Shown here: piece by piece, positions 770-20,159 of the stretch
Numbering within the stretch: position 1 is the stretch's first letter
How the letters are laid out: the number at the start of each line of letters is the position of its first letter
NCBI GenBank assembly: GCA_036227345.1
Contig: CP109468.1
Coordinates: forward strand, 248,001 to 312,000
Direction of reading: 5' to 3'
Origin: Streptomyces sp. NBC_01463
Lineage (GTDB): Bacteria; Actinomycetota; Actinomycetes; Streptomycetales; Streptomycetaceae
Length of the DNA: 64,000 bases
Program-made: the position numbers and the translations under genes
Notes under the pieces: model-generated
What the model was told of the DNA's origin: nothing
The model's input: the letters and a program-made list of their open reading frames with translations, nothing else
The model's database searches: none

Positions 770-2269
770 TCAGGGAGCGACGGTGTCCGCCGTCCGCTCC
801 CGCACCGCCCGGCCGCCGGTCAGGCTCGGACGGCGGTGGGCCCAGGGACGTATCGCCTCGTAGGCCGCGGCCGTGCGCAGGACGGTCCCGTCGGCGAGGT
901 GGCCGCCGATCAGCTGGAGGCCGACGGGAAGACCGTCCGGTGTGCGGCCCGCCGGGAGGCTGACCGCGGGCGCGCCGGTGAGGGACGCCGGGTAGTTGAA
1001 GCCGATCCAGGCGGTGTCGGTGACGCGTTGTCCATCGATACGGCCAGGGCCCTGAATGCCGACGGGGAACGGGGGCACGGCGGAGGTGGGCGTGATCAGG
1101 ATGTCGTAGCGGGACATGAAGGCGGCCATGCGGTTGGTGAGGGCCTTGCGCGCGATGTTGGCGTCGGTCAGCTCCTGCGCCGTCCATTCGCGGGTCATCC
1201 AGGACACCAGGTGCGGGGACATGGACGGGCCGTGCGCGTCGATGAGGCGGCGCATGCCGGTCAGGTCCGTCTCGGCGGTGATCAGCGCCTGGAACGCCTC
1301 CGCGGGGTCGCTCCAGCCCGGATCGGTCTCCTCGACCGTGCAGCCCAGGTCGCGGAAGACGGAGACGGCGTCGTCGACGACCGCACGCACCTCGGGGTCC
1401 ACCGGGAGGTAGCCGAGATCGGGGCTGTAGGCGATGCGGAGTCCGCCGCATCCTTCCACGGTGCCGCGCCGGACCGCCGTGTTCCAGTCGACGTCGTGGC
1501 ACGGGATGGAGTGCCGGTCCCGCGGGTCGGGGCCGGCCAGCACGGACAGCATGAGGGCGGTGTCGGCGACCGTCCGGGTCAGCACTCCCAGATGTTCGAG
1601 GCTCTCCCAGCCCGAGACGCCGGGGAACCGCTCGTCGCGGCATCCCGGCCAGACCGGGACGCGGCCCATCGACGGTTTGAAGCCGACCAGTTCACAGAAG
1701 GCGGCGGGCACGCGCAAGGAGCAACCGCCGTCGCTGCCGAGCGCCACCGGGCCGAGTCCCGCGGCGACCGCGGCGGCCGATCCGGCGCTGGAGCCCCCGG
1801 GGGTCAGCCCGGTGCTCCACGGATTGCGGCTGGGCGGGAAGAGGGGGTTGTGGCCGACGGCGCTGTATCCGAACTCCGTGGTGTTGGTCTTGCCCAGCAC
1901 GACGGCTCCGGCCTCGACACTCCGTTCCACGACGATGTCGTCCTCGTCGGGTACGTGGTCGCGGTACGCGGGGGAACCGGAGGTGGTCCGCAGACCCGCG
2001 GTCGCGATCAGGTCCTTCACGCCGAGCGGCACACCGGTCAGCGGTCCGGGGGTGCCGCCACGGGCCAGGTGGTCCGCCAGCGCGGCCGCCCTCGCGCGGG
2101 CCTGTTCGGGAGCCGGTGTGCAGAAGGCGCCGATCAGTGGGTTGACCTCGTCCATCCGGTCCAGCACAGCGTCCACGATCTCGACCGGACTGAGGCGGCG
2201 GTCGGCCACGCCGGTGACGATGTCGGTGGCCGGCAGGAAGCAGAGTTCGTCGCGTTCTTCGGGGGTCAC
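770..2269 (-). CDS. Amidase-signature family amidase
   Basis: The 499-residue amidohydrolase has a complete Ser-cisSer-Lys layout: Lys85 in GVPLGVKDLIAT, cis-Ser160 in the GGSSAGS loop, and Ser184 as nucleophile in SDGGCSLRVPA. The Lys-to-Ser spacing (75) and Ser-to-Ser spacing (24) match well-studied family members. The residue before the nucleophile is Cys where Gly is usual. It is the last gene of a minus-strand run behind an NCS1 permease and a CodA-like amidohydrolase, so it probably cleaves an amide or ureide formed from an imported nitrogen compound. The exact substrate is not known. Confidence 0.88.
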   Translation of the reverse strand: MTPEERDELCFLPATDIVTGVADRRLSPVEIVDAVLDRMDEVNPLIGAFCTPAPEQARARAAALADHLARGGTPGPLTGVPLGVKDLIATAGLRTTSGSPAYRDHVPDEDDIVVERSVEAGAVVLGKTNTTEFGYSAVGHNPLFPPSRNPWSTGLTPGGSSAGSAAAVAAGLGPVALGSDGGCSLRVPAAFCELVGFKPSMGRVPVWPGCRDERFPGVSGWESLEHLGVLTRTVADTALMLSVLAGPDPRDRHSIPCHDVDWNTAVRRGTVEGCGGLRIAYSPDLGYLPVDPEVRAVVDDAVSVFRDLGCTVEETDPGWSDPAEAFQALITAETDLTGMRRLIDAHGPSMSPHLVSWMTREWTAQELTDANIARKALTNRMAAFMSRYDILITPTSAVPPFPVGIQGPGRIDGQRVTDTAWIGFNYPASLTGAPAVSLPAGRTPDGLPVGLQLIGGHLADGTVLRTAAAYEAIRPWAHRRPSLTGGRAVRERTADTVAP

Positions 2270-2348
2270 GGGAGCCCTTTGTTCTCGGCGGGGACCTGGG
2301 GTGGGGTGGGTCGGAGAAGTGGGGACGGGGGCGGGCAGGCTGCTCGTC

Positions 2349-3782
2349 TCACACGTGGAGCGGATCGGGCTCGGCGGATTCGGCAGGGGTGGGGCCGGCC
2401 TGGGCGCCGGACAGCGGGGGCATACCCGAGGGGGCTTCGGCGTCGGTCGGGCGGCGCCCTGTCCACCAGAGGTGGCCGCCGTGGACCAGGGCGGCCACCA
2501 CGAACCCGAGCGCGGCGTCCACGGAGCCGGGGTGCGTGTGGTGCAGCACCCACGCCGCCGCCGATCCGGCCGCCCAGGCGACGAGCGCGGGAAGGACGTA
2601 TCCGGCGTGGCGGGAACCCGGTCCCCCGGTGGGTGCCTCGACGTCGTCGGCGGGTCGCGGCGGACGCCGCCGGAACCGGTCGGTCGCGTGCTGGACGATC
2701 AGCACGGCCCCGATGGGCGGCACGAGAATACCGAGGAGCTGGAGCCAGCTCACGATGGAACTCCACACCCCGGTCAGGGCGATGACCGATCCGAGCACCC
2801 CGAGGACGACGACCAGGGGGCGCATGCGCAGCGGTGTCGTACCCGACCATCCCAGGGCCGCGTTGTACAGGCAGTGTGCGGCGACGGAGCCCAGGTTCGT
2901 GAGGGTGAAGAGGACGGCCAACGCGGTGATCCAGGCGCCGTGTCCGGTGAGCAGGCCGAGGTAGGTGCCGCCGTCGGTCTCCGGGTTCGCGGCCCCGCCG
3001 GTGGCGACGACGGCGCCACCGACCAGGTAGGCGACGGTGTTGCTGAGCGGGAACGCGCTGAATGTGGCCAGGACTGCGGACCGGCCGTCCCGGCTCCAGC
3101 GGGTGAAGTCCGCCGTCATGGTGCCCGAGTCGACGAAACCGGCGATGACGATGCCGACGGCGGACCAGAAGGTGATGCCGTGGTCGTGCCCCTGGAAGTC
3201 GAGGGCCTGGGAGAGGCCGGCGCCGTCCTGCGCCGCGTACCAGAAGGCGAGGGCCGCGGTGACGAGGAACAGCGGGACGCCGAGCAGCCCGACGGCGGAC
3301 AGGGCGCGTATACCGGCCGCGGTCAGGCCGATGTATACAGCGGCCCCGAGCAGTGCTCCCCACAACGGGGCCCAGCCGAGGACCTGGTGCAGGGCCGTGC
3401 CGGTGAGACCGACCTGGTAGGAGAACCAGCCGATGACGACGGTGGCGAGGAATCCGGAGACGACCGCACGTCCGCGCGGGCCGAACACCGCGGCGGACTG
3501 CTGCGCGAAACTGCGCCCGGTCCGGCCGGCGTGGTGGCTCAGCGCACCCACGTAGCAGAAGAGCAGAAGGTTTCCGGTGAGGATGGCCCAGAAACCCTGT
3601 TCGAGGCCGAGGTTGTAGACGATCAGGCCGCCGAACACGGCGTTGCCGAGGCACATGGGGAAGCCTGCCCACACTCCGGCCACGGAGAGCAGGCTCTTCC
3701 TGGCGTGGGCCGGGACTGCGGTGTGCTCGTACTCCTCACCCGCTGCGGTGTGGTGGTCGGCGGTCGTGCGTGGTTCGGCCAT
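2349..3782 (-). CDS. NCS1 family nucleobase/cytosine-type permease
   Basis: The 477-residue integral membrane protein has about twelve hydrophobic segments. The first, SVAGVWAGFPMCLGNAVFGG, followed by a long GNLLLFCYVGALSHHAGRTG segment, is the form seen in CodB-like members of the nucleobase:cation symporter-1 family. Members import cytosine, purines, hydantoins or allantoin with H+ or Na+. It sits between an HpxZ-like gene and an amidase, 80 bases before the amidase start, which supports a role as the uptake step of this catabolic operon. The ligand cannot be assigned from sequence. Confidence 0.87.
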   Translation of the reverse strand: MAEPRTTADHHTAAGEEYEHTAVPAHARKSLLSVAGVWAGFPMCLGNAVFGGLIVYNLGLEQGFWAILTGNLLLFCYVGALSHHAGRTGRSFAQQSAAVFGPRGRAVVSGFLATVVIGWFSYQVGLTGTALHQVLGWAPLWGALLGAAVYIGLTAAGIRALSAVGLLGVPLFLVTAALAFWYAAQDGAGLSQALDFQGHDHGITFWSAVGIVIAGFVDSGTMTADFTRWSRDGRSAVLATFSAFPLSNTVAYLVGGAVVATGGAANPETDGGTYLGLLTGHGAWITALAVLFTLTNLGSVAAHCLYNAALGWSGTTPLRMRPLVVVLGVLGSVIALTGVWSSIVSWLQLLGILVPPIGAVLIVQHATDRFRRRPPRPADDVEAPTGGPGSRHAGYVLPALVAWAAGSAAAWVLHHTHPGSVDAALGFVVAALVHGGHLWWTGRRPTDAEAPSGMPPLSGAQAGPTPAESAEPDPLHV

Positions 3783-3838
3783 GGTGATCCCTTCGGTGGT
3801 ACGCGGGTGGCGCTGCTCGGACGGGGTGTGCGGGAGCC

Positions 3839-4258
3839 TCAGGGCGCCGGCGGGCGCCGGGAGACGTGGGCGGCGACGACGCGCCAGCCCTCGGGCAGCC
3901 GGAGCCAGGTCTGGGTCTGTCTGCCGACGCCGGGGTCGCCGTCGCGGACGAACAGGGTGGTGGTGACGGCGGTGTCGTGCCCGTAGGTGGTCACTTCGGT
4001 CCTGATCCGGGTGCGCCGCAGTCCGGTGGCGAGCCGCCGACGGCGGAACTCGGCTATCTCCGCCGCACCGAAGAGCTCCTCCCCCGCGCCGATGCGGACC
4101 GTCTCCGGGGCGTCCCGGAAGAAGCCGTCCAGGGCGGGGATGTCGTTGCCGGTCAGTGCGGCCTCGTAGGCATCGGCAAGGGCGCGGACCTCGGCGACGA
4201 TCTCGGGCCGATCGATCCGGTCCAGGGCGGCGGGTGCCTCAGTCGGCTTCTGCGGCAT
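3839..4258 (-). CDS. HpxZ/AtzH-like protein (DUF3225, NTF2-like fold)
   Basis: The 139-residue protein resembles oxalurate-catabolism protein HpxZ and AtzH, which are small NTF2-like proteins. The core runs from EIVAEVRALADAYEAALTGN through ALDGFFRDAPETVRIGAGEE to a C-terminal WLRLPEGWRVVAAHVS strand pair. Family members sit beside amidases in purine-ureide and cyanuric-acid catabolism, which is the setting here. The start is ATG at 4258, two bases after the stop of the upstream DUF1097 gene, so translation is probably coupled. A longer reading frame upstream overlaps that gene and is not used. Confidence 0.75.
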   Translation of the reverse strand: MPQKPTEAPAALDRIDRPEIVAEVRALADAYEAALTGNDIPALDGFFRDAPETVRIGAGEELFGAAEIAEFRRRRLATGLRRTRIRTEVTTYGHDTAVTTTLFVRDGDPGVGRQTQTWLRLPEGWRVVAAHVSRRPPAP

Positions 4259-4260
4259 GG

Positions 4261-4806
4261 TCAGCGGGCCTCCGCCGCGACGGTCTGGAACTCCACGGCG
4301 GGGACGGGCCGGGACAGGGTGAGCCGGTGTGCCAGATACGCGTAGACGGGGCCGAGCGCGTTCATCGCGACGACGCTCAGCCATGCCGCCCAGACGTTTC
4401 CCGGCTCGTAGCCGAAGCCTCCGAAGTAGGTGGCGAAGTAGGAGGCGAATCCCAGGAACATGCCCGGGACGAGTGAGGTGGCGCGGAGGCGGCCGGTGTA
4501 CATGAGGGCGGTGTTGAGGACCAGGATGACCGCGCCGAGCAGGGCGTTCTGTGCCCATCGCGCCTCGCTGACGTGAGGGGCGAGGTGCTGTTCGCAGACG
4601 ACGATGGCCAGGGCGAAGGCCGAGCCCACCGGCATCGCCCGCCAGAGCCGGGTGGCGTTGGCCAGGGTCGGTCCGCCCATCAGGTGCAGTCCGGCCCAGG
4701 AGATGAAGATCGCCCACGGCGGCAGGTTCAGCGCTGTCCCGCCGACGAAGGCGGTGGTCGCGGCGAGGACGGACGCGGTGAGTTCGTGCGGAATGCGCTC
4801 ACGCAT
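4261..4806 (-). CDS. DUF1097-like integral membrane protein
   Basis: The 181-residue product has about five hydrophobic helices, with glycine and aromatic motifs such as LPPWAIFISWAGLHLMGGP near the N-terminus and LGFASYFATYFGGFGYEPG near the C-terminus. This pattern fits the DUF1097 (YcdZ-like) family, whose function is not established. In this operon it lies directly upstream of the HpxZ-like gene with a two-base gap. It could be a second uptake or an efflux component for the pathway, but that is inference from position only. Confidence 0.65.
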   Translation of the reverse strand: MRERIPHELTASVLAATTAFVGGTALNLPPWAIFISWAGLHLMGGPTLANATRLWRAMPVGSAFALAIVVCEQHLAPHVSEARWAQNALLGAVILVLNTALMYTGRLRATSLVPGMFLGFASYFATYFGGFGYEPGNVWAAWLSVVAMNALGPVYAYLAHRLTLSRPVPAVEFQTVAAEAR

Positions 4807-4963
4807 GGCGTGCTCCTGACATACGGCAGGTGGGAAGGGGGCAGAGCCGCGTCCCGGGACTTGGCAGCGGGAACGGGACGGGGCGGCGGGAACGGGGGAC
4901 GGCAGAGGACGGTTCGTCCGCGACCGATTGCGAGTCGTGGGCGCGAGGCGGCCGGTCAGCGCT

Positions 4964-6247
4964 CTACGCGGCCCGGATGCCTCCGGCGGCCTCGGCCGGG
5001 GTGTCGATGATTTCGGTGGTGCGGACGGAACGCGCCACGACGCGACCACGCTTGACGACCCAGCGGCGCTCCGGCCGGTCGACCAGCACGTCCGCGTGGC
5101 GGCGCGTCCCGAGAACCACCAGGTCGGCGCGGGCTCCGGGGTGGATGCCGTAGCCGTCGTGGACGCCGGTGACGCGGGCGGCCTCCGTCGTGGCCATGCG
5201 CAGGATCCGCCCGGTGTCGGCCGGGCCGCCCATGTGGCAGGCCTGGGCGAGCAGGTGGCCGATGTCGAGCATGTCGGCGTTGCCGAAGGGCGTGAAGGCG
5301 TTGCGGACGTTGTTGGAGGAGTAGGCGGTCACCACTCCCCCGTCGATCAGCTCCCGGACCGGGGCCACTCCCCGGCGGACGGCCCGGTCGTCGCCTCGCC
5401 CTCCGAGGTACAGGTCGGTGGCGGGCAGCGCGACGACCGCGACTCCGGCCTCCGCGAGGAGCGCGACGACTTCGGCCCGCTCGGCGGGCGGCCGTCCGGC
5501 CAGCGAGGTCACGTGGCCGAGCGTCACCCGGCCGCCGAGACCGTGCTGCCGGGTGGCCTCGGCGAGGACTCCGGCGAGGGCGAAGCGCCCGTCGGCGGTG
5601 TCGTCGGCGAAGTCGGCGTGCAGGTCGGCCGGTACCCCGAACTCGACGGCGAGGCCGAGCACCGTGTCGATGTGGCGACGGCAGGCGTCGACGTCCGCCT
5701 CGTTGTACGTACAGCCGCCGACGACGTCCGCACCCCGCAGGAGCGCCTCCCGCAGCAGGGCGTACGTGCCCGGTGCACGTTCGATCCCTTCCTGGGGAAA
5801 GGCGACGACCTGGAGGTCCACCAAATTCTTCTGGCTCTCGCGGAGTTCGAGCATGACGTCCAGCCCGACGAGCCCGGCGACCGGGTCGACGTCCGGATGG
5901 GCGCGGATCAGTGTGGTGCCGTTGCCGACGGCCCACCGCAGCACCTGGAGGGCGCGTGCCCTGACGGAGTCAGGGGTGAAGTCGCGTTTGAGCTCCCCCG
6001 TCACCTCGATGGCATCGGCCAGCGTCTCCGCAGGTCGGCCGACTCCGCTCAACAGGGCCTTGTCCAGGTGGAGATGGGGCTCGATGAAACCGGGGACGAC
6101 GACCAGTCCGTCGCAGTCGATGGTTTCGCGGGCGGGAGCCTGCGGCGGCACGTCGCCCACCGCATCGATCATTCCGTCGATGACGGCGATGTCGGCCGGC
6201 GCACCGTCCTCCGTGATCAACGCGCGGCGCAGCACGAGGTCGTACAC
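4964..6247 (-). CDS. CodA-like amidohydrolase (cytosine deaminase family) with altered metal-site Asp
   Basis: The 427-residue protein has the amidohydrolase barrel of CodA and AtzC. Metal-site residues visible are His58 and His60 in EPHLHLDK, His210 in DLHADFADD, and His245 in VTLGHVTSL. Where cytosine deaminase has a His-Asp-Asp-Val segment, this protein reads SSNNVRNAF (Asn312-Asn313), so the usual Asp is Asn. It is the first gene of the minus-strand run and its promoter region faces the GntR gene. It probably deaminates or opens an imported N-heterocycle, but the substitution means that cytosine deaminase activity should not be assumed. Confidence 0.82.
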   Translation of the reverse strand: MYDLVLRRALITEDGAPADIAVIDGMIDAVGDVPPQAPARETIDCDGLVVVPGFIEPHLHLDKALLSGVGRPAETLADAIEVTGELKRDFTPDSVRARALQVLRWAVGNGTTLIRAHPDVDPVAGLVGLDVMLELRESQKNLVDLQVVAFPQEGIERAPGTYALLREALLRGADVVGGCTYNEADVDACRRHIDTVLGLAVEFGVPADLHADFADDTADGRFALAGVLAEATRQHGLGGRVTLGHVTSLAGRPPAERAEVVALLAEAGVAVVALPATDLYLGGRGDDRAVRRGVAPVRELIDGGVVTAYSSNNVRNAFTPFGNADMLDIGHLLAQACHMGGPADTGRILRMATTEAARVTGVHDGYGIHPGARADLVVLGTRRHADVLVDRPERRWVVKRGRVVARSVRTTEIIDTPAEAAGGIRAA

Positions 6248-6302
6248 AGCGATCCCCTTCTGGCGTTCCGGGAAAGAGTGACGTGCGATGACGTCCAGAA
6301 GG

Positions 6303-6310
6303 TGTATACA
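6303..6310. promoter_or_regulatory. Candidate GntR operator half of a shared TGTATACA motif
   Basis: A perfect 8-bp palindrome, TGTATACA, sits 56 bases upstream of the amidohydrolase start. A near copy lies upstream of the divergent FmdA-like gene. GntR/FCD regulators commonly bind short GTATAC-type palindromes. One more copy (3332-3339) is inside the permease gene, so the motif alone is weak evidence. Confidence 0.45.
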
Positions 6311-6478
6311 GAGACCGCGTTACGGCATACCGCTAACCGCGTGACGCTCGTGTTTCCGACAGCTCTTCACGGCCGCGGCTGCGGGCGGGACCGCCGGACA
6401 GGTGGATGGGAAGCCGGGAAGACGGGCAGGAAGACAGCGGGGGCAAGGCGCATGTCGGCGGTGCGCAGCACCCTCCGA

Positions 6479-7132
6479 TCAGCGCTTTCCGCGTAGCCGG
6501 TAGGCGGCTTGCGCACGCATGATGTGGTCGGCGACCCGGTCGCGTGCCTCCTTCGGGTCCTGGTCGCGCAACGCCTGGACGATCCCCTCGTGCTCGGCCC
6601 ACGAGTCCGGTGCGCGCCGCGGGAGTTCGACTGAATACACCCAGGAGATCTTGTATCCGAGCTGTGCCACCAGTGCCGCCAGCGTCGGACTGCCCGACGC
6701 CTCGGCGAGTACCCGGTGGAAGCGGGTGTTGAGATCGGCGAGCCCTGTCGACGAGCCGGCATCCAGGATCTCCCTGGCCTCGGCCACGAGGAGTTCGAGC
6801 GTGGCCAGGTGCACCGCGGTCCGGCGGGTGGCGGCACGCTCGGCACCGAACGGCTCGATGAGCAGGCGGATGCCCAGCAGGTCCTCGGCCTCCTTGTCGC
6901 TCAACTCGGCCACGAACGTGCCCCCGTACGGACGCGAGTGGACGAACCCCTCGGCCTCCAGGGTGCGCAGGGCTTCACGGACAGGAATGCGCGAGACCCG
7001 GTAACGGGCCGCGAGCCTCTCCTCGGTGAGGCGGTCCCCGGGCGTGAACACGCGTGTGACCACGTCGTTCCTGATGGCGTCGCACACCGCCTGCCCCGCG
7101 TCCCGCCTCCGCACCGCGCCGAGTTCGGCCAT
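6479..7132 (-). CDS. GntR family transcriptional regulator, FCD ligand domain
   Basis: The 217-residue protein has an N-terminal winged helix with RLTEERLAARYRVSRIPVRE, where the second helix is the recognition helix. A helical FCD domain follows, with metal-ligand-like residues in the DLNTRFHRVLAEASG and EHEGIVQALRDQD segments. FCD regulators sense small organic acids. ATG at 7132 is chosen because it has a GGAGGGCGG sequence before it, and because the longer start at 7195 would place the candidate operator inside the gene. It lies between the two arms of the catabolic cluster and most likely represses both. Confidence 0.88.
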   Translation of the reverse strand: MAELGAVRRRDAGQAVCDAIRNDVVTRVFTPGDRLTEERLAARYRVSRIPVREALRTLEAEGFVHSRPYGGTFVAELSDKEAEDLLGIRLLIEPFGAERAATRRTAVHLATLELLVAEAREILDAGSSTGLADLNTRFHRVLAEASGSPTLAALVAQLGYKISWVYSVELPRRAPDSWAEHEGIVQALRDQDPKEARDRVADHIMRAQAAYRLRGKR

Positions 7133-7186
7133 GGCTCCGCCCTCCGGGTTTCGCCGGGCCGCATGGGTTAACCGGCTTGTAACGGG

Positions 7187-7194
7187 TGTATGCA
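7187..7194. promoter_or_regulatory. Candidate GntR operator upstream of the FmdA-like gene
   Basis: TGTATGCA, preceded by GGG, lies 12 bases before the FmdA-like start and 54 bases before the GntR start. It matches seven of eight bases of the palindrome at 6303-6310, so both arms of the cluster may be controlled by the same regulator. Confidence 0.45.
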
Positions 7195-7206
7195 AAGGTC
7201 AACGCC

Positions 7207-8334
7207 ATGAGCGTACTTCAGCCTCACACCGGCACCATCGACGGTTCGGTCTACCTGGCCGCGGACCACGGGACGACGACCTGGGGTCTGCTCCCCAACG
7301 CGGCAGGCCGCCCCGCCCTCACCGTGGACTCCGGCACCACGGTGTGCCTCGACACGACGAGCCACGAGGGCATCCTGCCGGACCAGGGGCGCGACCCGGT
7401 GAAGTTCTTCGCGGAGGCCGGGATCGCGGAGCGGGACGTGTTGCACGACGCGATCGAACTGGCCTCGTCCGACGTACTGTTCGACCCCGGTGCGCAGGGT
7501 CCCCATGTCGTCACCGGGCCGATCGCGGTGCGCGGTGCGCTGCCGGGCGACGTGCTGGAGGTCGAGGTCGTGCGCCTGCGGCGCAGGACGGCGTACGGCG
7601 TGATCAGCAACCGGCACGGGCGCGGCGCCCTGCCCGGGGAGTACCCGGCGCCGGCTCCGGGCCACCCGGACGGGCAGCCCGTCCCCCCGGTGTCCCTGGT
7701 CGCCCATGTCGACGACGACGGTCGCGGCCGACTGCCGGTCGGCGACGGGCGGGACATCGGGTTCCCGCTCGCTCCCTTCCTCGGCATCATGGGTGTCGCG
7801 CCCGCCACAGAGGCGCCGGTGCACTCGGTCCCGCCGGGAGCCCACGGCGGAAACCTCGACATCCGGCTCCTGGGCGAAGGCGCGCGGCTGTTCCTCCCGG
7901 TGCAGGTGCCGGAGGCCATGTTCTACGCGGGTGACCCGCACTTCGCCCAGGGCGACGGTGAGGTCGCCCTCACCGCGTTCGAGGCTCCCCTGCGGGCCAC
8001 CCTGCGGCTGACCCTGCACTCCGACAGCCGGGCCCGGCGGCTCGCGGCAGGGCTCGCCGGCCCGTACGCGGAGACGGCCGGGCACTATCTCGTGACCGGT
8101 CTCGACGAGGACCTCGACGAGGCCGTCCGCAAGGCCACCCGTTCGGCGCTCACCTATCTCGCCGAACGCTGCGGCCTGCCCGGCTCGGTGGCGCTGGCCT
8201 ATCTGAGCGCAGCGGTCGATCTGCGTATATCGCAGGTAGTGGACGGTGTGAAGGGGGTCCATGTGTGCCTTCCCAAGGCGGATCTCGGTCCACTTCTGAT
8301 CGACGGACCCACCGCGCCGGGCCTGCTCCGGTGA
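7207..8334 (+). CDS. Acetamidase/formamidase family protein (FmdA/AmdA-like)
   Basis: The 375-residue protein belongs to the FmdA_AmdA family, which hydrolyses formamide or short amides to ammonia and an acid. Recognised segments include the N-terminal DHGTTTWGLLPN, the IAVRGALPGDVLEVEVVRL strand-turn typical of the family, and the GGNLDIRLLGEGARLFLPV core. ATG at 7207 is chosen because the in-frame start at 7186 would overlap the candidate operator. Its stop overlaps the next amidase start by four bases, so the two enzymes are probably made together and act in series. Confidence 0.82.
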   Translation: MSVLQPHTGTIDGSVYLAADHGTTTWGLLPNAAGRPALTVDSGTTVCLDTTSHEGILPDQGRDPVKFFAEAGIAERDVLHDAIELASSDVLFDPGAQGPHVVTGPIAVRGALPGDVLEVEVVRLRRRTAYGVISNRHGRGALPGEYPAPAPGHPDGQPVPPVSLVAHVDDDGRGRLPVGDGRDIGFPLAPFLGIMGVAPATEAPVHSVPPGAHGGNLDIRLLGEGARLFLPVQVPEAMFYAGDPHFAQGDGEVALTAFEAPLRATLRLTLHSDSRARRLAAGLAGPYAETAGHYLVTGLDEDLDEAVRKATRSALTYLAERCGLPGSVALAYLSAAVDLRISQVVDGVKGVHVCLPKADLGPLLIDGPTAPGLLR

Positions 8335-9554
8335 CCGGGGGAACGTCCGCTCCGAGCCCGCTGCCCGTCATCGGGCCGTACGTCCCCTGGCTGCCGTCGC
8401 CCGCACTGCCGGAACCCGTCGCCGCCGCGGGCCTGGCCGGTGCGCGGGTAGCAGTCAAGGACGTGATCGACCTCGCCGGCGCTCCCACCGGCAACGGGCA
8501 CCCCCTGCTGCTCGCCGAAGCCGCGACGGCTTCGCGTCATGCCTCGTGTGTGTCCCGCGTGCTGGACGCGGGAGGAGTGACCGCGGGCAAGGCCCACACC
8601 GACGAGCTCGCCTACAGTCTGGGCGGCACCAACGCCCACTACGGCGCACCCGCCAACCCCGCTGCGCCCGGCCGTCTGACGGGCGGCTCGTCCAGCGGTA
8701 CGGCGGCCGCGGTCGCCGGGCGGCTCGCCGACGTCGGGCTGGGTACCGACACCGCCGGCTCCATCCGGGTGCCGGCCTCCTACTGCGGCCTGTACGGGCT
8801 GCGCCCCACGCACCCACGCGCCGACCTCACCGGGATCAGCCCGCTCGCCCCCTCCTTCGACACCCCGGGCCTCCTCACCCGCACCCTCCCCCTGATGCGC
8901 GACGCCGCGGCGGCCCTCCTGGCAGGCACCGAGTCCGGCGACCTCACGACCCGCCGGCTGCTCGCCCCGGCCGACCTGTGGTCCCTGGCGGCTCCGGACG
9001 TACGCGCCGCACTGTCACCGGCTCTCGCCCGGCTGGCCGCCGGACTGGGTGTCGAGCCCGACCGGACCTCCCTGTTCGACGACCGGGCGCCGGTCCCGCA
9101 CGCCGCGGCCAGGGACGCCTTCACCACGGTCCAGGCCGCGGAGGTGTGGCGCGCTCACGGCCGGTGGATCACACGGGCCCGCCCGGAGTTCGGCCCGAAC
9201 GTCGCCGCACGGCTGCGGATGGCGGGCCGGGTGGGACGCGACCGCGAGGAGAGCGCCCGGGCCTGCGCGGCGGCCGTCGCCCGCTGGCTCGGCGAGCACC
9301 TGGCGGGCGCCGTACTGGCGATCCCCGCCACACCGACGCCCGCCCCGGCGTACGGCGAGCCGGGCACCGGAGTGCGCGAGGCGCTGCTCGGCCTGACCTG
9401 CCTGGCAGGTCTGGGCGGCCTTCCGGCCCTCACCGTTCCCGGTCCTCGCGCGGGCGGCCTGCCGGTCGGAATCTGCCTGCTGTCCGCACCGGGCGGAGAC
9501 GAACAGCTCCTGGTGGCAGGAGCATTCGCGGAGGCTGCTTCGGGCGGGGGATGA
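8331..9554 (+). CDS. Amidase-signature family amidase, translationally coupled
   Basis: The 407-residue amidase starts at a GTG that overlaps the preceding TGA (GTGA), a standard sign of translational coupling. The triad is Lys43 in VAVKDVIDLAG, cis-Ser120 in the GGSSSG loop, and Ser144 in GTDTAGSIRVPA, with 24 residues between the serines. It lacks the long N-terminal helical part of the first amidase and is shorter than most of the family. Its coupling to an FmdA-like enzyme points to hydrolysis of an amide intermediate in the same pathway. Confidence 0.85.
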   Translation: MTGGTSAPSPLPVIGPYVPWLPSPALPEPVAAAGLAGARVAVKDVIDLAGAPTGNGHPLLLAEAATASRHASCVSRVLDAGGVTAGKAHTDELAYSLGGTNAHYGAPANPAAPGRLTGGSSSGTAAAVAGRLADVGLGTDTAGSIRVPASYCGLYGLRPTHPRADLTGISPLAPSFDTPGLLTRTLPLMRDAAAALLAGTESGDLTTRRLLAPADLWSLAAPDVRAALSPALARLAAGLGVEPDRTSLFDDRAPVPHAAARDAFTTVQAAEVWRAHGRWITRARPEFGPNVAARLRMAGRVGRDREESARACAAAVARWLGEHLAGAVLAIPATPTPAPAYGEPGTGVREALLGLTCLAGLGGLPALTVPGPRAGGLPVGICLLSAPGGDEQLLVAGAFAEAASGGG

Positions 9555-9803: not shown

Positions 9804-10604
9804 ATGACTGACGAGCAGGGCATCCGGACGCCGGGGGACGGAATCGACACGGGCACGCCGCATTCGGCACGGGTGTGGAACTACTGGCTGGGCGGCAAGG
9901 ACAACTACGAGGTGGACCGCCGGCTCGGGGCGACGATGGAGGAGCTGTACCCGCAGATCATCGAGATAGCGCGCGCCTCGCGGGCGTTCCAGGCGCGGGC
10001 GGTGCGCTTTCTTGCCGGTGAGGCCGGGGTGCGCCAGTTCCTGGATCTCGGCACCGGTCTGCCGACCGCGAACGCGACGCACGAGGTCGCCCAGGAGGTC
10101 GAGCCGGCGGCACGGATCGTGTACGTGGACAACGACCCGATCGTCCTCGCCCACGCGCGTGCCCTGCTGACCAGCCGGCCCGAAGGGGCGACGGACTACG
10201 TGCACGCGGACCTGACGGACGCGAAGTCGGTGTTGCGCGAGGCAGCCCGGACGCTGGACCTCGACAAGCCGGTGGCCGTGATGGTGCTGTCGACGCTGGG
10301 ACACGTCGCGGACTCGGGCGACGCCGCGGCGCTGCTGCGCAGCTACTTGGACGTACTGCCCGTGGGCAGCTATCTGATGCTGTGCGACACCATCGGGACC
10401 CCGGAGACCGAGGCCGGTTCCGAGGAGTACGCCAGTGGCGGTGCCATGCCGTACATCTCGCGTCCCAAGGAGATCATGGCGACCTTCGCGGACGGACTCG
10501 AACTCGTGGAGCCGGGCTTCGGCTCGATCAGCCTGTGGCGCCCCGAAGAGCCTGTCGCCGGCGAACCGGTCGACCAGTGGGGATTCGTGGCCGCCAAGCG
10601 CTAG
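9804..10604 (+). CDS. SAM-dependent methyltransferase, DUF574 type
   Basis: The 266-residue protein is a DUF574 (Methyltransf_19) member, a group expanded in Streptomyces. It starts with the typical TPHSARVWNYWLGGKDNYEVD segment region, followed by the SAM-binding strand QFLDLGTGLPTANATHE. A nucleotide-binding acidic end, RIVYVDNDPIVLAHARALL, and a YVHADLTD motif follow. Substrates of the family are mostly unknown. A GAGGG element lies just before the ATG. It stands alone between the catabolic cluster and an MFS/amidase pair. Confidence 0.87.
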   Translation: MTDEQGIRTPGDGIDTGTPHSARVWNYWLGGKDNYEVDRRLGATMEELYPQIIEIARASRAFQARAVRFLAGEAGVRQFLDLGTGLPTANATHEVAQEVEPAARIVYVDNDPIVLAHARALLTSRPEGATDYVHADLTDAKSVLREAARTLDLDKPVAVMVLSTLGHVADSGDAAALLRSYLDVLPVGSYLMLCDTIGTPETEAGSEEYASGGAMPYISRPKEIMATFADGLELVEPGFGSISLWRPEEPVAGEPVDQWGFVAAKR

Positions 10605-10973
10605 CCACCACCTGTCGTACCGATCGACCACGTGGCCGGGCTGACGGTCGGCCATCGCAGTCGCGCCCGCGGCAGCCGGTCGGCGGACGCCCTCGCACAG
10701 CTCCCGGCGCGGTGCCGTGAAGCAGTGCAGGGCGTCCGGACGCGGCGACGCGGCACCGTTCCGGGCGTCTGCCGAGCCGGCATGGGGCCGCCCTCGGGCC
10801 ATCCTGCCCCTGCCTGAATGCCGGACCCTGCGAGCCCCGGGGCTCCCCCGCCTCCTGATCCCTTCCAGGCAGAAAGTTCCGCACACCCCCTTCTCCGTAC
10901 CGACTGGTCGGTACTAGCCTCGCGGCGGCGAGCACGCACTGCGGCGTGCCGTTGACCAGCACTGGGAGGCAAG
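10605..10973. other. Intergenic region upstream of the MFS/amidase pair
   Basis: No convincing gene is present in these 369 bases. The right-hand end holds an 18-bp inverted repeat (10897-10914) and presumably the promoter of the downstream transporter gene. The left part has only weak open frames without ribosome sites. Confidence 0.5.
10897..10914. promoter_or_regulatory. Candidate TetR-type operator (8-bp perfect inverted repeat)
   Basis: GTACCGAC and GTCGGTAC form perfect 8-bp arms around a TG centre, 59 bases before the MFS start. The form is typical of TetR operators with ACCGAC-type arms. No TetR gene is adjacent; the only one in the window is at 45.1-45.7 kb, so the regulator must act from elsewhere. 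Confidence 0.55.
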
Positions 10974-12683
10974 GTGTCGATTTCGCCACCGGCGGCGACG
11001 GAGCCGCGCACGGCCAAGAGGGCGCCATCGGCACTGCGCGGACTCGGGGCGCGACGACTCGACCGGTACCCCGAACCAGGCGCACGGCACTGGTACTTGG
11101 TGGTCGTCGTCCTCGTCACGATCGTCCTCTACTACCAGCTGTACATCCAGTACGCGGTGTCGACCGCCGTCATCAGCCAGTACCACATGACGTTCCTGTA
11201 CTTCGTGTACATCTCGGTGGCCGCCAACGCGGTGGGAGCGTTCTCCTCGCTGGTGGCCGGTCTCGCCGACCGCTGGGGCCGGGCCAACATCGTGGTCTAC
11301 GGGCTTCTCGCGGTCGGCCTGCTCACCACGTTCGCTCTGCCCAACGCGCCCGGAAAGGTGAGCTACCTGCTCGTCTACGCCGCGATCGCGTTCGTCGAGG
11401 GCATGATCCTGGTGGCCACACCCGCGCTGATCCGGGACTTCTCACCCCAGCTGGGCCGTGCCTCCGCCATGGGCTACTGGACGATGGGCCCGATCATCGG
11501 CAGCCTCGTCGTCACCGCCGTCACCTCACGCACCTACGGCGGCGGCACCACTTGGCAGGACGAGATCCGCTTCGCGGGCATCAGCGGTCTGGTGCTGTTC
11601 GTCGTCGCCCTGTTCGGGCTGCGCGAGCTCGCCCCGGCGCTGCGTGATCAGATCATGGTGAGTCTGCGGGACCGTGCGCTGGTCGAGGCCCGCGCCAAGG
11701 GCATGGACACGGACTCCGCGCTGCGCCCCCAGTGGCGTCAGATGCTGCGTCCGGACGTCGTCGGGTCGGCTGTCGCGATCAGCCTGTACCTGCTCCTGTA
11801 CTACGCCGCCGTCGGCAACTTCGTGCTGTACTTCGCGACCACCTTCGGCTACTCGGCGCAGCGCGCGAACGCCCTACTGAACTGGTACTGGGGGGCGAAC
11901 GCGATCACCCTCGTCGTGGCGGGAGTCGTCTCCGACCGGCTGCGGGTGCGCAAGCCGTTCATGCTGCTGGGCGGTCTCGGCTCCATCGGCTTCACTCTGT
12001 GGTTCACCCTGCGCGCCACCGAACCCCACACCGGGTACTACACGTTCGCCCTGATCGTGGCCGGCATCGGTGTGACCAGCGGCATCGCCTACTCCCCGTG
12101 GATGGCGGGGTTCACCGAGACGGTGGAGCGGCACAACCCGGCCGCCACCGCGATGGGCCTCGCCGTCTGGGGCTGGACGGTCCGCATCACCGTGGCCCTG
12201 TCCGCGGCCTTCGTACCGCTCGTGGTGAACACCGTGACCCCTCTCATCGAGTACGGGCCGGCCGTTGAACAGGCTTCGGTCCAGGCCGCGCCCGCACTGG
12301 CGGTGACCAGGGCCCACCCCGAGATCTTCGCCGAACTCGACGCGTACGCACCGGACAAGGTGCCCGCCTCCCTGCTCTCCCGCGCGGAGAAGGAGGTCGG
12401 TGCCGAGCAGCTGCGCACGGTGCGGAAAGCTGCGCCGCAGCTGAAGCTCCTGCGCGAGCACGGGCCCGAGGTACAGCGGGCCAGTGCCGACAACCCGGGC
12501 AAGTGGCAGACCTGGTGGTGGGTGTGTCTGGGCGGGCAGGTGCTGTTCCTGCCGTTCGTCTTCGTCATGTCCGGCCGATGGCGGCCGCGTGACGCCCGGC
12601 GTGACCTCCAGTTGCACGAGGAGGCCGTGGCCCGGCAGTTCGCCGAGATGAGGCCCGACTCCGAGGAAGGACGCACCGCATGA
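10974..12683 (+). CDS. MFS transporter with an extra soluble loop before the last helix
   Basis: The 569-residue transporter has about twelve membrane helices, starting with WYLVVVVLVTIVLYYQLYIQ. The cytoplasmic signature GLADRWGRANIVVYG lies between helices 2 and 3. About 90 charged, alanine-rich residues (roughly 425-515, from LIEYGPAVEQ to ADNPGKW) are inserted before the final helix, which is unusual for MFS proteins of normal size. The GTG start follows GGGAGGC. Its stop overlaps the start of an amidase by four bases (ATGA), so it probably imports the substrate of that enzyme or exports the product. Confidence 0.87.
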   Translation: MSISPPAATEPRTAKRAPSALRGLGARRLDRYPEPGARHWYLVVVVLVTIVLYYQLYIQYAVSTAVISQYHMTFLYFVYISVAANAVGAFSSLVAGLADRWGRANIVVYGLLAVGLLTTFALPNAPGKVSYLLVYAAIAFVEGMILVATPALIRDFSPQLGRASAMGYWTMGPIIGSLVVTAVTSRTYGGGTTWQDEIRFAGISGLVLFVVALFGLRELAPALRDQIMVSLRDRALVEARAKGMDTDSALRPQWRQMLRPDVVGSAVAISLYLLLYYAAVGNFVLYFATTFGYSAQRANALLNWYWGANAITLVVAGVVSDRLRVRKPFMLLGGLGSIGFTLWFTLRATEPHTGYYTFALIVAGIGVTSGIAYSPWMAGFTETVERHNPAATAMGLAVWGWTVRITVALSAAFVPLVVNTVTPLIEYGPAVEQASVQAAPALAVTRAHPEIFAELDAYAPDKVPASLLSRAEKEVGAEQLRTVRKAAPQLKLLREHGPEVQRASADNPGKWQTWWWVCLGGQVLFLPFVFVMSGRWRPRDARRDLQLHEEAVARQFAEMRPDSEEGRTA

Positions 12684-14128
12684 CCGAACAGACCCGGCTG
12701 CACGAACTCACCGCGCTCGAACAGGCCGCCGCCGTGCGGAAGGGCGAGGCCGGCCCACTGGATCTCGTACGCCATCACCTCGCCCGCGTGGAGCGGTACG
12801 ACGGACGTTTCGGCGCCTTTCTGACGCGGACTCCCGAGGCCGCACTCGCCGAAGCAGCGGCTCTCCCGGAGCGGCAGCCCGCACACCGCTCGCCACTGTT
12901 CGGTGTGCCGACCGCCGTCAAGGACCTCGTCGACACGGCCGGGGTTGCGACCACGTACGGGTCGAAGGCCTTCGCCGGTCACGTCCCTGCTACCGACGCC
13001 CACACGGTGACCCGGATGCGTGCGGCCGGCACCATCAGCCTGGGCAAGACCAACACACCCGAATTCGGCTGCTGTTGCTACACGGACAACGATCTCGTGG
13101 GCCCGGCCCGCAATCCCTGGGACCCGTCTCTCTCCGCAGGAGGGTCGAGCGGCGGAGCCGCGGTGGCCGTGGCGCTCGGCCTGGTCCCCGTCGCCCATGC
13201 AAGTGACGGCGGTGGCTCCATCCGGATCCCGGCGAGCGTCTGCGGGCTCGTCGGCATCAAGCCCTCGCGGGGCCGCGTCAGTTCGGGACCGTCAGGCGCC
13301 GAGGTCACGGGCCTCGCGGTGCAGGGTCCGCTGGCCCGGTCCGTGCGTGACGCGGCGGCCCTGCTCGACGTCCTGGCCGGGCCCGAGCCGGGCGACCCGC
13401 ACTGGGCGCCGCCGCTGCCGGCCGGCGAGTCGTTCCTCGGCCATACCGACCGGACTCCCGGACGGCTGCGCATCGGCCGGTACGCGGCACCGGCCGCCGA
13501 CGGCATCACCGTCGACCCTGCCTGCCTGGCCGCCTGGGAACACGCCTCTCACCTGCTGGAGAGCCTGGGCCACGTCGTGGAGGACATACCCACCCCGTTC
13601 GGCCCCGAGATCTCCGGGCACTTCGTGACCGCATGGGGTGTGCAGTCGCTCGGGCGCTCGCTGGAGGCCGGGCGGGAGAGCCTGCTCCGGCCGGTGACCC
13701 GGGCCTGGAGGGAGTACGGGCGCGGAGTGTCGGGCGAGCAGTTCGCCGCGGCCGTCACGGCGATGCACGGTGCCGCGCGACGCGCGATCCGTTCGACACA
13801 GGCGTACGACGTCGTGCTCACCCCTACCCTTGCGACGCTCCCGCGGAGCGTCGAGTACTTCGACGAGTCGGGCGACCCGCTGGTCAACCTGTACCGGCAG
13901 AGCGCGTTCAGCGCGTTCACCAGCCCGTACAACATGACGGGCCAGCCTGCCGTCAGCCTTCCGCTGTACTGGACGGAGGGGGGCCGGATTCCGGTCGGGG
14001 TCCAGCTCGTGGGACGCCCTGCCGACGAGGCGACGCTGATCGCGCTGAGCGCCCAGATAGAGGAGGCGAATCCCTGGCGGGACCGGTACGCGGACCTGCT
14101 CGCCGAGCCTGACGCCGGCGCGCGCTGA
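12680..14128 (+). CDS. Amidase-signature family amidase coupled to MFS transporter
   Basis: The 482-residue amidase starts within the stop of the MFS gene (ATGA). The triad is Lys81 in PTAVKDLVDTAG, cis-Ser156 in AGGSSGG, and Ser180 in SDGGGSIRIPA, again with spacings of 75 and 24. A CCCY run after the conserved TPEFG motif is unusual. The C-terminal FSAFTSPYNMTGQPAVSLP segment is the family's typical end. The closest described groups are aryl-acylamidases and cyclic-dimer hydrolases, but substrate cannot be read from sequence. With its transporter, it makes a two-gene uptake-and-hydrolysis unit. Confidence 0.88.
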   Translation: MTEQTRLHELTALEQAAAVRKGEAGPLDLVRHHLARVERYDGRFGAFLTRTPEAALAEAAALPERQPAHRSPLFGVPTAVKDLVDTAGVATTYGSKAFAGHVPATDAHTVTRMRAAGTISLGKTNTPEFGCCCYTDNDLVGPARNPWDPSLSAGGSSGGAAVAVALGLVPVAHASDGGGSIRIPASVCGLVGIKPSRGRVSSGPSGAEVTGLAVQGPLARSVRDAAALLDVLAGPEPGDPHWAPPLPAGESFLGHTDRTPGRLRIGRYAAPAADGITVDPACLAAWEHASHLLESLGHVVEDIPTPFGPEISGHFVTAWGVQSLGRSLEAGRESLLRPVTRAWREYGRGVSGEQFAAAVTAMHGAARRAIRSTQAYDVVLTPTLATLPRSVEYFDESGDPLVNLYRQSAFSAFTSPYNMTGQPAVSLPLYWTEGGRIPVGVQLVGRPADEATLIALSAQIEEANPWRDRYADLLAEPDAGAR

Positions 14129-14169
14129 CCGGAGGCGGAGGCCGGGGCGATGGACGGGGCGAAGCACCG

Positions 14170-14229
14170 CGGACGAAGTGCACACCTGGCACCTGCGGAG
14201 CTGCCCCGCACTTCGTCCGAGCGCCCCCG
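14170..14229. terminator. Bidirectional terminator between converging genes
   Basis: CGGACGAAGTGC (14170-14181) pairs perfectly with GCACTTCGTCCG (14218-14229). The hairpin lies exactly between the amidase stop and the stop of the converging FUSC gene. Confidence 0.65.
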
Positions 14230-17571: not shown

Positions 17572-18486
17572 GAGAGGACCCGGAACCATGTGCGGGCAAA
17601 ATGCCCGGCCTGTCCCGGCGTATCCCGTCCACCCGACAGGCCCCCAGACACCCGTGAGACGGCGCTCACCATCACCACTCGATCACCGCCCCCGGCCCGG
17701 GAGCTCACAGCCCCGACCGCCCGGTGACGTTCACCGCAGGCGAGACACCGACGGAGATACCAATGGGGTTCAGTTTCCCCATGGGAGGGATCGCGAAATT
17801 CCGCCACCGACTTCCGGGAATGCCGAATAGCCGATTGCCTGGCGGCGCTATTGATCTCGCGCCCTTTCGGTTTATTTCCTCTCCGCAGTCGCCACAAAGC
17901 CCCTCGCAGGGGCACATCCATGAGTGATTCGTAGCAGCGCCGGTCGCGGATTGCTCCCGGATCGAACCCGTCGCAGATTCAGGCCTGCTCGTGTGCCATT
18001 CAAGTGATCAAAGGACTGGCGGTCGATCGACCACGCCGGGCCGATCCCCTTGCCTGCCCGCCGAGTTGACGGCTGTCGTGCACTTCGATCCGACAGGAGA
18101 AGCCCTCCGAGAGGCACTACACCACTACTGCGAATAGCTTGCAATAAGGATCGGGTCCCACTTTTGGCCTACTGACGGAGTGGCGTGATTCAGCGACTTT
18201 CCGTCCGCTCGACGGCGCCCATTCCTGCGTTCATCTGCGGCTATTGAGGAATGGAACGTTCTGTCGATGAATTTCTTGACACTGGCGTGAGTTCATTTCC
18301 GGAGAAATGTGGTTCGCTGTCGCCCCGACGATCAGCGGGGCCCCGCCCCCTGGGCATACGCCCGGATCTTCATGTCCTTTGCGCGTGATCGTCGGATCCG
18401 TTCGATCCACCCCACGGATACCCCGGACCGGCACGTGTGACCCACACAGGCGGTGCGCGGTGATCCCTCTGTCGAGAGGCTCAGTC
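17572..18486. other. 0.9-kb AT-richer non-coding spacer
   Basis: No gene with good codon use and ribosome site is seen. The base composition is richer in A/T than the flanks. Short inverted repeats are present: ATGGGG/CCCCAT at 17763-17782, GCCCCT/AGGGGC at 17899-17913, and GTGTG/CACAC at 18435-18447, the last 40 bases before the DUF4331 gene and a possible operator. Confidence 0.45.
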
Positions 18487-20049: not shown

Positions 20050-20084
20050 CCGGCCGCCCCGTCCAGGGGTGATCCCGGGTGACG

Positions 20085-20121
20085 GCGGTGTCCGGACCGG
20101 ACCCACCGGTCCGGACACCGC
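20085..20121. terminator. Strong hairpin between DUF4331 and TPR genes
   Basis: Sixteen bases starting GCGGTGTCCGGACC (20085-20100) pair perfectly with 20106-20121 around the five-base loop ACCCA. It lies 36 bases after the DUF4331 stop and 38 bases before the TPR start. It either terminates the first message or acts as a partial terminator that lowers TPR and transporter expression. Confidence 0.7.
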
Positions 20122-20159
20122 TTCCGCCCCCTGCCCGTCACACATCACAGGGAGTACCA

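Follow-up and report, generated by a model that had tools for sequence, protein, structure and literature searches.

A Candidate Oxalurate-Type Nitrogen-Scavenging Gene Cluster with a CodA-Like Protein of the F/N Subfamily in Streptomyces sp. NBC_01463

The window analysed here is a stretch of 64,000 nucleotides from Streptomyces sp. NBC_01463, which corresponds to 248–312 kb of a 9.07-Mb genome in two contigs (G+C 71%). At 770–9554 it contains eight genes. Six of them, on the minus strand, encode an amidase-signature enzyme (AS1), an NCS1-family permease, an HpxZ/AtzH-like protein, a DUF1097 membrane protein, a CodA-like amidohydrolase and a GntR regulator. Two on the plus strand encode an FmdA-like amidase and another amidase-signature enzyme (AS2). 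The eight genes almost certainly form a functional unit, and the genes that accompany the CodA-like gene elsewhere make oxalurate quite probable as the metabolic node. The whole set may well be one regulon that scavenges nitrogen from a cyclic ureide via oxalurate. The CodA-like protein belongs to a subfamily, called F/N here, in which two acidic residues of Escherichia coli cytosine deaminase are replaced by Phe and Asn. It is tentatively proposed, as possible rather than probable, that the F/N proteins are new cyclic-ureide hydrolases, which keep the histidine metal site and convert parabanate to oxalurate. Theirs would be the first gene for parabanate use, present in archaea as well as in Actinobacteria, Proteobacteria and Firmicutes, and coupled to exchangeable back ends, either phosphorolytic (AllFGH and carbamate kinase) or hydrolytic (AS2 and HpxZ).

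Conservation of the Eight-Gene Unit

All eight families, their strands and the span of the cluster, as given in an earlier note on this DNA, were found in the open reading frame (ORF) list and in Pfam and NCBIfam scans. The CodA-like gene is rare. With the genome under study included, it is present in 12 of 391 genomes of the order (E 1e-90), in 6 of 246 genomes of the genus (E 1e-60) and in 2 of 396 genomes of a draw from the phylum. One of the six, G165, is only 39% identical.

The earlier note had suggested a search for co-occurrence of the eight genes in other genomes, and co-occurrence is seen. The nearest relative found, locus L100 of the same genus, contains all eight genes at 82–96% identity and has the layout of the window, AS2-FmdA / GntR-CodA-DUF1097-HpxZ-NCS1-AS1. 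Its GntR protein is 96% identical to that of the window, and its HpxZ is read together with NCS1. Loci of Streptacidiphilus (L020) and Catenulispora (L030) contain six of the eight genes, without NCS1 and AS1. Because the gene is rare, the layout is conserved in these three loci and the flanking genes are not conserved, the cluster is considered an accessory but coherent unit.

A wider set consists of the best 80 loci of a contig scan, the window and loci from further genomes, all chosen by the presence of a CodA-like gene. Of this set 93 loci were mapped with home-made profiles, and family names were assigned from Pfam and NCBIfam matches of representatives. L101, L104 and L107 duplicate L020, L030 and L033 and were left out, but the 115 CodA-family ORFs comprise the second copies from these three loci as well as paralogues. 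L019, a CodA relative with 39% identity, was left out of the locus set, and L111–L116 stand outside the 93.

The families seen in the 93 loci are DUF1097 (46), FmdA (30), carbamate kinase (23), AllF (22), AllG (21), the gamma-glutamyltranspeptidase family, or GGT (20), AS2 (19), GntR (18), AllH (17), PucR (16), a Firmicute permease (14), NCS1 (6) and AS1 (3). HpxZ is found in six loci at a 60-bit threshold, and in nine if three weaker Curtobacterium fusions (42–53 bits, confirmed by Pfam) are counted. Where the main CodA-like copy is non-acidic (84 loci), AllF, AllG, HpxZ, GGT or FmdA is present in 62 and AllF or AllG in 21. The CodA-like gene is also found on two contigs titled as Thermoplasmata archaea (L039 and L051), together with DUF1097, carbamate kinase and AllF, the last of these weak in L051; L039 has AllG as well.

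Two Interchangeable Back Ends

In eight of the 12 other Streptomyces loci, the CodA-like, FmdA-like and DUF1097 genes adjoin AllF/AllG (oxamate carbamoyltransferase) and carbamate kinase. This combination is seen in 8 of the 34 actinobacterial loci, and L033 has carbamate kinase alone. In the window and 17 other actinobacterial loci, AS2 stands in place of AllF/AllG/carbamate kinase. The two back ends never occur together in the 34 loci: 18 have AS2 only, 11 the other only and 5 neither (Fisher p 1.5e-5, uncorrected for kinship).

The draw of 391 genomes from the order, taken as the same set in both searches, contains 12 carriers of the CodA-like gene, 14 of AllG and 7 of both (p 1e-8). Six of the seven belong to the genus of the window, and no other genome of that genus in the draw has AllG. 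The seventh, G644, is of the AS2 type and has its AllG on a different contig. Two other families account for the other seven AllG carriers. AllG has no match in the window's own genome, while the E. coli control matches.

AllG is matched twice in each of the six genomes of the genus that carry it. Three of the second loci were examined (L111, L112 and L113), and all contain AllFGH, carbamate kinase and an NCS1 permease. L111 also contains a further NCS1 permease, a gene of the Asp/Glu/hydantoin racemase family and an acidic-type amidohydrolase. These second AllFGH loci look like allantoin-type loci.

In an annotated record of Enterococcus faecalis, one run of genes comprises fdrA, DUF2877 (AllH), an MFS carrier, carbamate kinase (arcC), a dicarboxylate symporter, allD, a permease and the F/N amidohydrolase. 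AllD converts ureidoglycolate to oxalurate, which makes oxalurate the likely transferase substrate in this locus. With the E. faecalis AllD as query, further AllD proteins are found only in L083 and L090 among the mapped loci. Oxalurate elsewhere would therefore come from another source, and parabanate yields oxalurate in one hydrolysis. The 747,526-base record of L116 (NZ_CP143580.1) is called an E. faecalis plasmid; it contains housekeeping-like genes (methionine synthesis, nhaC) and may be a piece of the chromosome.

HpxZ and AS2

The HpxZ/AtzH-like protein (3839–4258, minus strand) has an NTF2 fold and is the sole match of its family in the genome. It scores above the cut-off of the NCBIfam HpxZ equivalog NF033625 (155.9 vs. 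135 bits) and matches AtzH structures. All nine residues of the AtzH pocket, as named in passages of PMC6219798, are identical in it (Tyr22, Arg46, Arg63, Arg66, Arg73, Phe94, Arg96, Gln106 and Gln108). According to the same passages, the amidase AtzE produces 1,3-dicarboxyurea, which AtzH converts to allophanate, and Tyr22 and Arg46 are implicated in this conversion.

AS2 (about 8265–9554, plus strand; PF01425, 169.9 bits) probably starts downstream of 8265. Its nearest model is PRK08310 (375 bits, cut-off 391), and its scores do not place it among AtzE orthologues. Each of the four Curtobacterium loci encodes the AS2 amidase fused to an AtzH-like domain (PF01425 with PF11533); the position of Arg96 is altered in two of these four fusions. 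No other single finding hints as strongly as this fusion that AS2 makes an N-carboxy compound from which HpxZ removes the carboxy group. A putative step from oxalurate to oxamate by AS2 and HpxZ appears fairly likely.

FmdA-Like Protein and GGT-Family Enzymes

The FmdA-like amidase (7207–8334, plus strand, with a longer reading from 7186) is the single locus of its family in the genome. It has the Pfam family PF03069 (102.6 bits) in common with formamidase/acetamidase, but it is far under the cut-off of the formamidase equivalog (70.3 vs. 500 bits). FmdA (30 loci) and a GGT-family enzyme (20 loci) are together in none of the 93 loci, and an HpxW-like enzyme of the GGT family stands in FmdA's place in 20 proteobacterial loci. 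The GGT of L048 matches the two chains of 5hft (HpxW) with 226 and 156 bits, and the sum is above every other match listed. The second GGT of L040 is less clear, with 192 and 118 bits vs. 300 for 2nlz. According to a passage in PMC5270733, HpxW converts oxamate to oxalate and ammonium. FmdA may be a stand-in for HpxW, and it is plausible, on balance neither favoured nor disfavoured, that it acts on oxamate as an oxamate amidohydrolase.

The CodA-Like Protein of the F/N Subfamily

The CodA-like protein (4964–6247, minus strand; PF07969/PF01979) shares 31% identity with E. coli cytosine deaminase (TM 0.89). Its AlphaFold2 model, built with 48 sequences, has a mean pLDDT of 94.4. In E. coli CodA, Glu217 is the proton shuttle and Asp313 is a metal ligand. 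The window protein has Phe213 and Asn312 at these positions; 86 other ORFs likewise have Phe and Asn (87 of 115), and one has Leu and Asn. Both are acidic in 27 ORFs, and mixed cases are absent. His61, His63, Gln156, His214 and His246 of E. coli CodA are kept in the window protein, and Asp314 is replaced by Asn.

Nine loci have an acidic-type protein as the main copy. Two of them, L095 and L097, lie near AllF/AllG, and L087 lies near an AllH-like frame. In Nocardia and Paraburkholderia loci, acidic-type paralogues are found near the F/N type (for example at 7978–9333 in L021 and at 13725–15092 and 16301–17938 in L042). Possibly these paralogues perform a preceding step.

Parabanate as the Candidate Ring

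From the anatomy, the conservation, the module swaps, the HpxZ–AS2 fusion and the residue changes, we infer a route and its control. The NCS1 permease, the DUF1097 protein or both would import a cyclic ureide; the most likely one is parabanate, which is oxalurate in cyclic form. The F/N enzyme would open the ring to give oxalurate. AS2 would release the terminal amide nitrogen of oxalurate as ammonia and leave N-carboxyoxamate, which HpxZ would decarboxylate to oxamate, by analogy with AtzH on 1,3-dicarboxyurea. The FmdA-like enzyme would convert oxamate to oxalate and ammonia. The GntR regulator would control both divergent units via TTGTATACAA-like candidate sites. Parabanate as the ring is plausible, if somewhat short of probable.

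Much of the earlier note is thus supported by context: a conserved unit under one GntR regulator, an imported N-heterocycle or ureide, and ring opening followed by release of ammonia. The deamination that it offers as an alternative to ring opening is not supported for the CodA-like protein, as the subfamily lacks the acidic residues of the deaminases.

Several published passages bear on parabanate. Parabanic acid is described as a product of uric acid and singlet oxygen, with slow hydrolysis to oxaluric acid at neutral pH (passage in PMC5703782). Phenotype arrays are cited in which it serves as a nitrogen source for Burkholderia cenocepacia, dependent on NtrC (passage in PMC5491218), and for Zymomonas, where the genes are not known (passage in PMC7451989). 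The title of a 1965 paper, as given in reference lists, states that parabanic acid induced oxamate transcarbamylase in a Streptococcus. AllFGH is presented as oxamic transcarbamylase in a passage of PMC11326118, and the three allFGH genes are discussed as candidates in a passage of PMC3364942. For nitrifiers, a passage of PMC12625717 lists allFGHK, biuret genes and, in a few of them, a cytosine permease, and names hpxY oxalurate amidohydrolase. In the parts of the open-licence literature that were covered, oxalurate genes were nowhere linked with a protein resembling cytosine deaminase, with FmdA or with DUF1097, which is a weak negative; PMC12625717 and PMC3364942 came closest.

Several points weigh against this route. 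The F/N subfamily lacks residues thought necessary for hydrolysis. The oxalurate context is not unique to the F/N type, because the acidic-type loci L095, L097 and L087 share it. At the thresholds used, 26 of the 93 loci have none of AllF, AllG, carbamate kinase, GGT, FmdA, AS2 and HpxZ; these include Sporosarcina and several Enterococcus loci, and a few of their contigs are short. On a tree of the CodA-like protein with 27 actinobacterial rows, the swap of back ends corresponds to two label changes only; the number of events behind the exclusion is thus at least two, not 29. The split between FmdA and GGT also follows phylum, all 20 GGT loci being proteobacterial. AS2 is far below the AtzE models (159.2 vs. 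461 and 155.1 vs. 425.75 bits). HpxZ is seen in 8 of the 18 AS2-type loci and is absent from the stretch examined in the other 10. No oxalyl-CoA decarboxylase above its cut-off is found in this genome. As to the first point, one may speculate that parabanate, as a strongly electrophilic ring, could be opened with less assistance from the enzyme.

Alternative Roles of the CodA-Like Protein

The pathway might be the same and the ring another one. The CodA-like enzyme would then open hydantoin, 5-hydroxyhydantoin or another cyclic ureide, and AllFGH or AS2 would act on the ureido acid. The presence of allD in the E. faecalis locus, L083 and L090 agrees with such a scheme. Together with the M20 peptidase and the class-V aminotransferase that L083 carries as well, it suggests that ureidoglycolate-level intermediates may arise close by. 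Uptake of hydantoins by some NCS1 carriers also speaks for another ring. The decarbamoylated products would, however, have no primary amide, and no work would be left for the FmdA- or HpxW-like enzyme that is present in 50 of the 93 loci (30 and 20). Moreover, the small operons L069, L072 and L076 have no match to allD (allC was not searched for). Another ring is rather unlikely.

A deaminase acting on a cytosine-like or creatinine-like base is improbable. It would suit the closest solved folds, which are 5-methylcytosine deaminase and cytosine deaminase (TM about 0.9), and the permease, whose nearest model is that of CodB (PRK11017; 163.5 bits, cut-off 326). Yet the acids at positions 217 and 313 are lost jointly in 88 of the 115 ORFs and never singly, and the protein is below every curated deaminase model (best 291.7 bits vs. 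a cut-off of 438). The neighbours, moreover, are oxalurate genes. Because both Glu217 and Asp313 are replaced, the protein is not filed as a cytosine deaminase.

The F/N protein could also be a binding or regulatory subunit outside the main route, with oxalurate itself being imported. The loss of the metal-ligand Asp and of the Glu across the whole F/N subfamily would be expected of such a protein. The retention of the three metal-site histidines and Gln156 in 84 or 85 of 85 sequences argues against such a role, as does the recurrence of the gene across phyla with changing partners, though the loci were picked by this gene. The subunit role is improbable.

A pathway for an s-triazine (cyanuric acid) with AtzC-like, AtzE-like and AtzH-like enzymes is very improbable: AtzC is a structural neighbour of the CodA-like protein (TM 0.82–0.85) and the AtzH pocket is kept in HpxZ, but AS1 and AS2 score far under the cut-offs of the allophanate hydrolase models, and an AtzD query has no match in the genome, which proves little as it has none in any control either.

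Comparison with Known Systems

The oxalurate branch of the Klebsiella HPX system, which consists of hpxW, hpxX, hpxY and hpxZ, resembles the cluster in the pairing of HpxZ with an amidase and in the proposed course from oxalurate via oxamate to oxalate. Unlike that branch, the window has an AS2 nearest to PRK08310 and not to AtzE, an FmdA-like protein in the place of HpxW, and the CodA-like, DUF1097 and NCS1 genes in addition. The oxamate branch of the E. coli ALL system (allFGH and allK) has a counterpart in the window's relatives, in which AllF/AllG and carbamate kinase lie beside CodA-like, FmdA and DUF1097 genes. The window's genome differs from it in having AS2 and HpxZ in place of AllG. 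With the cyanuric acid operon atzDGEHF of Pseudomonas sp. ADP, the cluster shares the identical AtzH pocket and, by analogy, the order of an amidase followed by a decarboxylating AtzH-type protein; neither AtzD nor AtzF is among the eight genes. The CodA-like fold is shared with cytosine deaminase, 5-methylcytosine deaminase and AtzC (TM 0.82–0.91), unlike the residues at positions 217, 313 and 314.

The earlier note had called the combination undescribed. This was too strong, as described oxalurate catabolism already includes the pairing of HpxZ with an amidase and the set of AllFGH and carbamate kinase found in the relatives. A conserved oxalurate-type nitrogen-scavenging module with swappable back ends is new as a combination, and its entry enzyme is probably new as well; the ring-opening F/N subfamily may be undescribed. 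The protein, widespread but recognised by no models other than those of cytosine deaminases and of amidohydrolases in general, is thereby tied to oxalurate metabolism and given a concrete candidate substrate. Candidate enzymes are also obtained for two ill-defined steps, namely the HpxZ-paired amidase for oxalurate and the FmdA-type enzyme for oxamate.

Transport and Regulation

The NCS1-family permease (2349–3782, minus strand; PF02133, 89.7 bits) is the likely importer. DUF1097 (4261–4806, minus strand; PF06496, 69.6 bits) is a small helical membrane protein and a candidate permease. Its model has a mean pLDDT of 86.5 and resembles AtALMT1 only weakly. DUF1097 (46 loci) and the Firmicute permease (14 loci) are together in none of the 93 loci. 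This exclusion fits DUF1097 as a candidate carrier, but the split also follows phylum. The Firmicute-type permease has 450 residues and adjoins the CodA-like gene in its 14 loci (7227–8585 in L082; also 10618–11973 in L116). Two copies of this permease-like protein were scanned, and neither has a Pfam match.

The regulator (6479–7132, minus strand; PF07729 and PF00392) is an FCD-type GntR protein with an ATG at 7132 and a longer reading from 7195. Palindromes near TTGTATACAA are present in both gaps of the window. GTGTATACAG at 6302–6311 is a candidate GntR operator upstream of the CodA-like operon, and GTGTATGCAA at 7186–7195 is a candidate GntR operator in the divergent gntR-fmdA gap. With up to two mismatches, five TTGTATACAA-like sites occur in the 64 kb vs. 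0.88 expected, and the other three are intragenic.

L100, L020 and L030 also have a TTGTATACAA-like site in both gaps. Seven Nocardia loci (L021, L023–L026, L074 and L088) have one single-mismatch site upstream of the CodA-like gene, and L031 has two-mismatch sites only. None is found in the Curtobacterium and Gordonia loci. Among 11 loci with AllF/AllG or carbamate kinase, 7 have no site, and four (L033, L053, L105 and L106) contain one or two sites with no more than two mismatches. GntR-type loci are thus enriched in the motif without being its sole carriers.

AS1 and the Borders of the Cluster

AS1 (770–2269, minus strand, GTG start; PF01425, 351 bits) contains the Lys, Ser and Ser motifs of the amidase-signature family. 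It is above threshold only in the window, L025 and L100 among the 93 loci, with fragments in L018. AS1 and the NCS1 permease are an optional module of the cluster.

Directly after the cluster, at 9804–14128, come three genes, for a methyltransferase-like protein (identified by eye), an MFS transporter and a third amidase, AS3; four bases are common to the MFS and AS3 frames. An extension of the cluster to these genes was rejected. The right border at 9554 holds because the methyltransferase, MFS and third-amidase genes are above threshold in none of the 92 other loci. Further downstream, at 18307–23212, three consecutive plus-strand genes encode a long secreted-looking protein, a repeat-rich protein and a membrane protein with His-rich stretches, as judged by eye.

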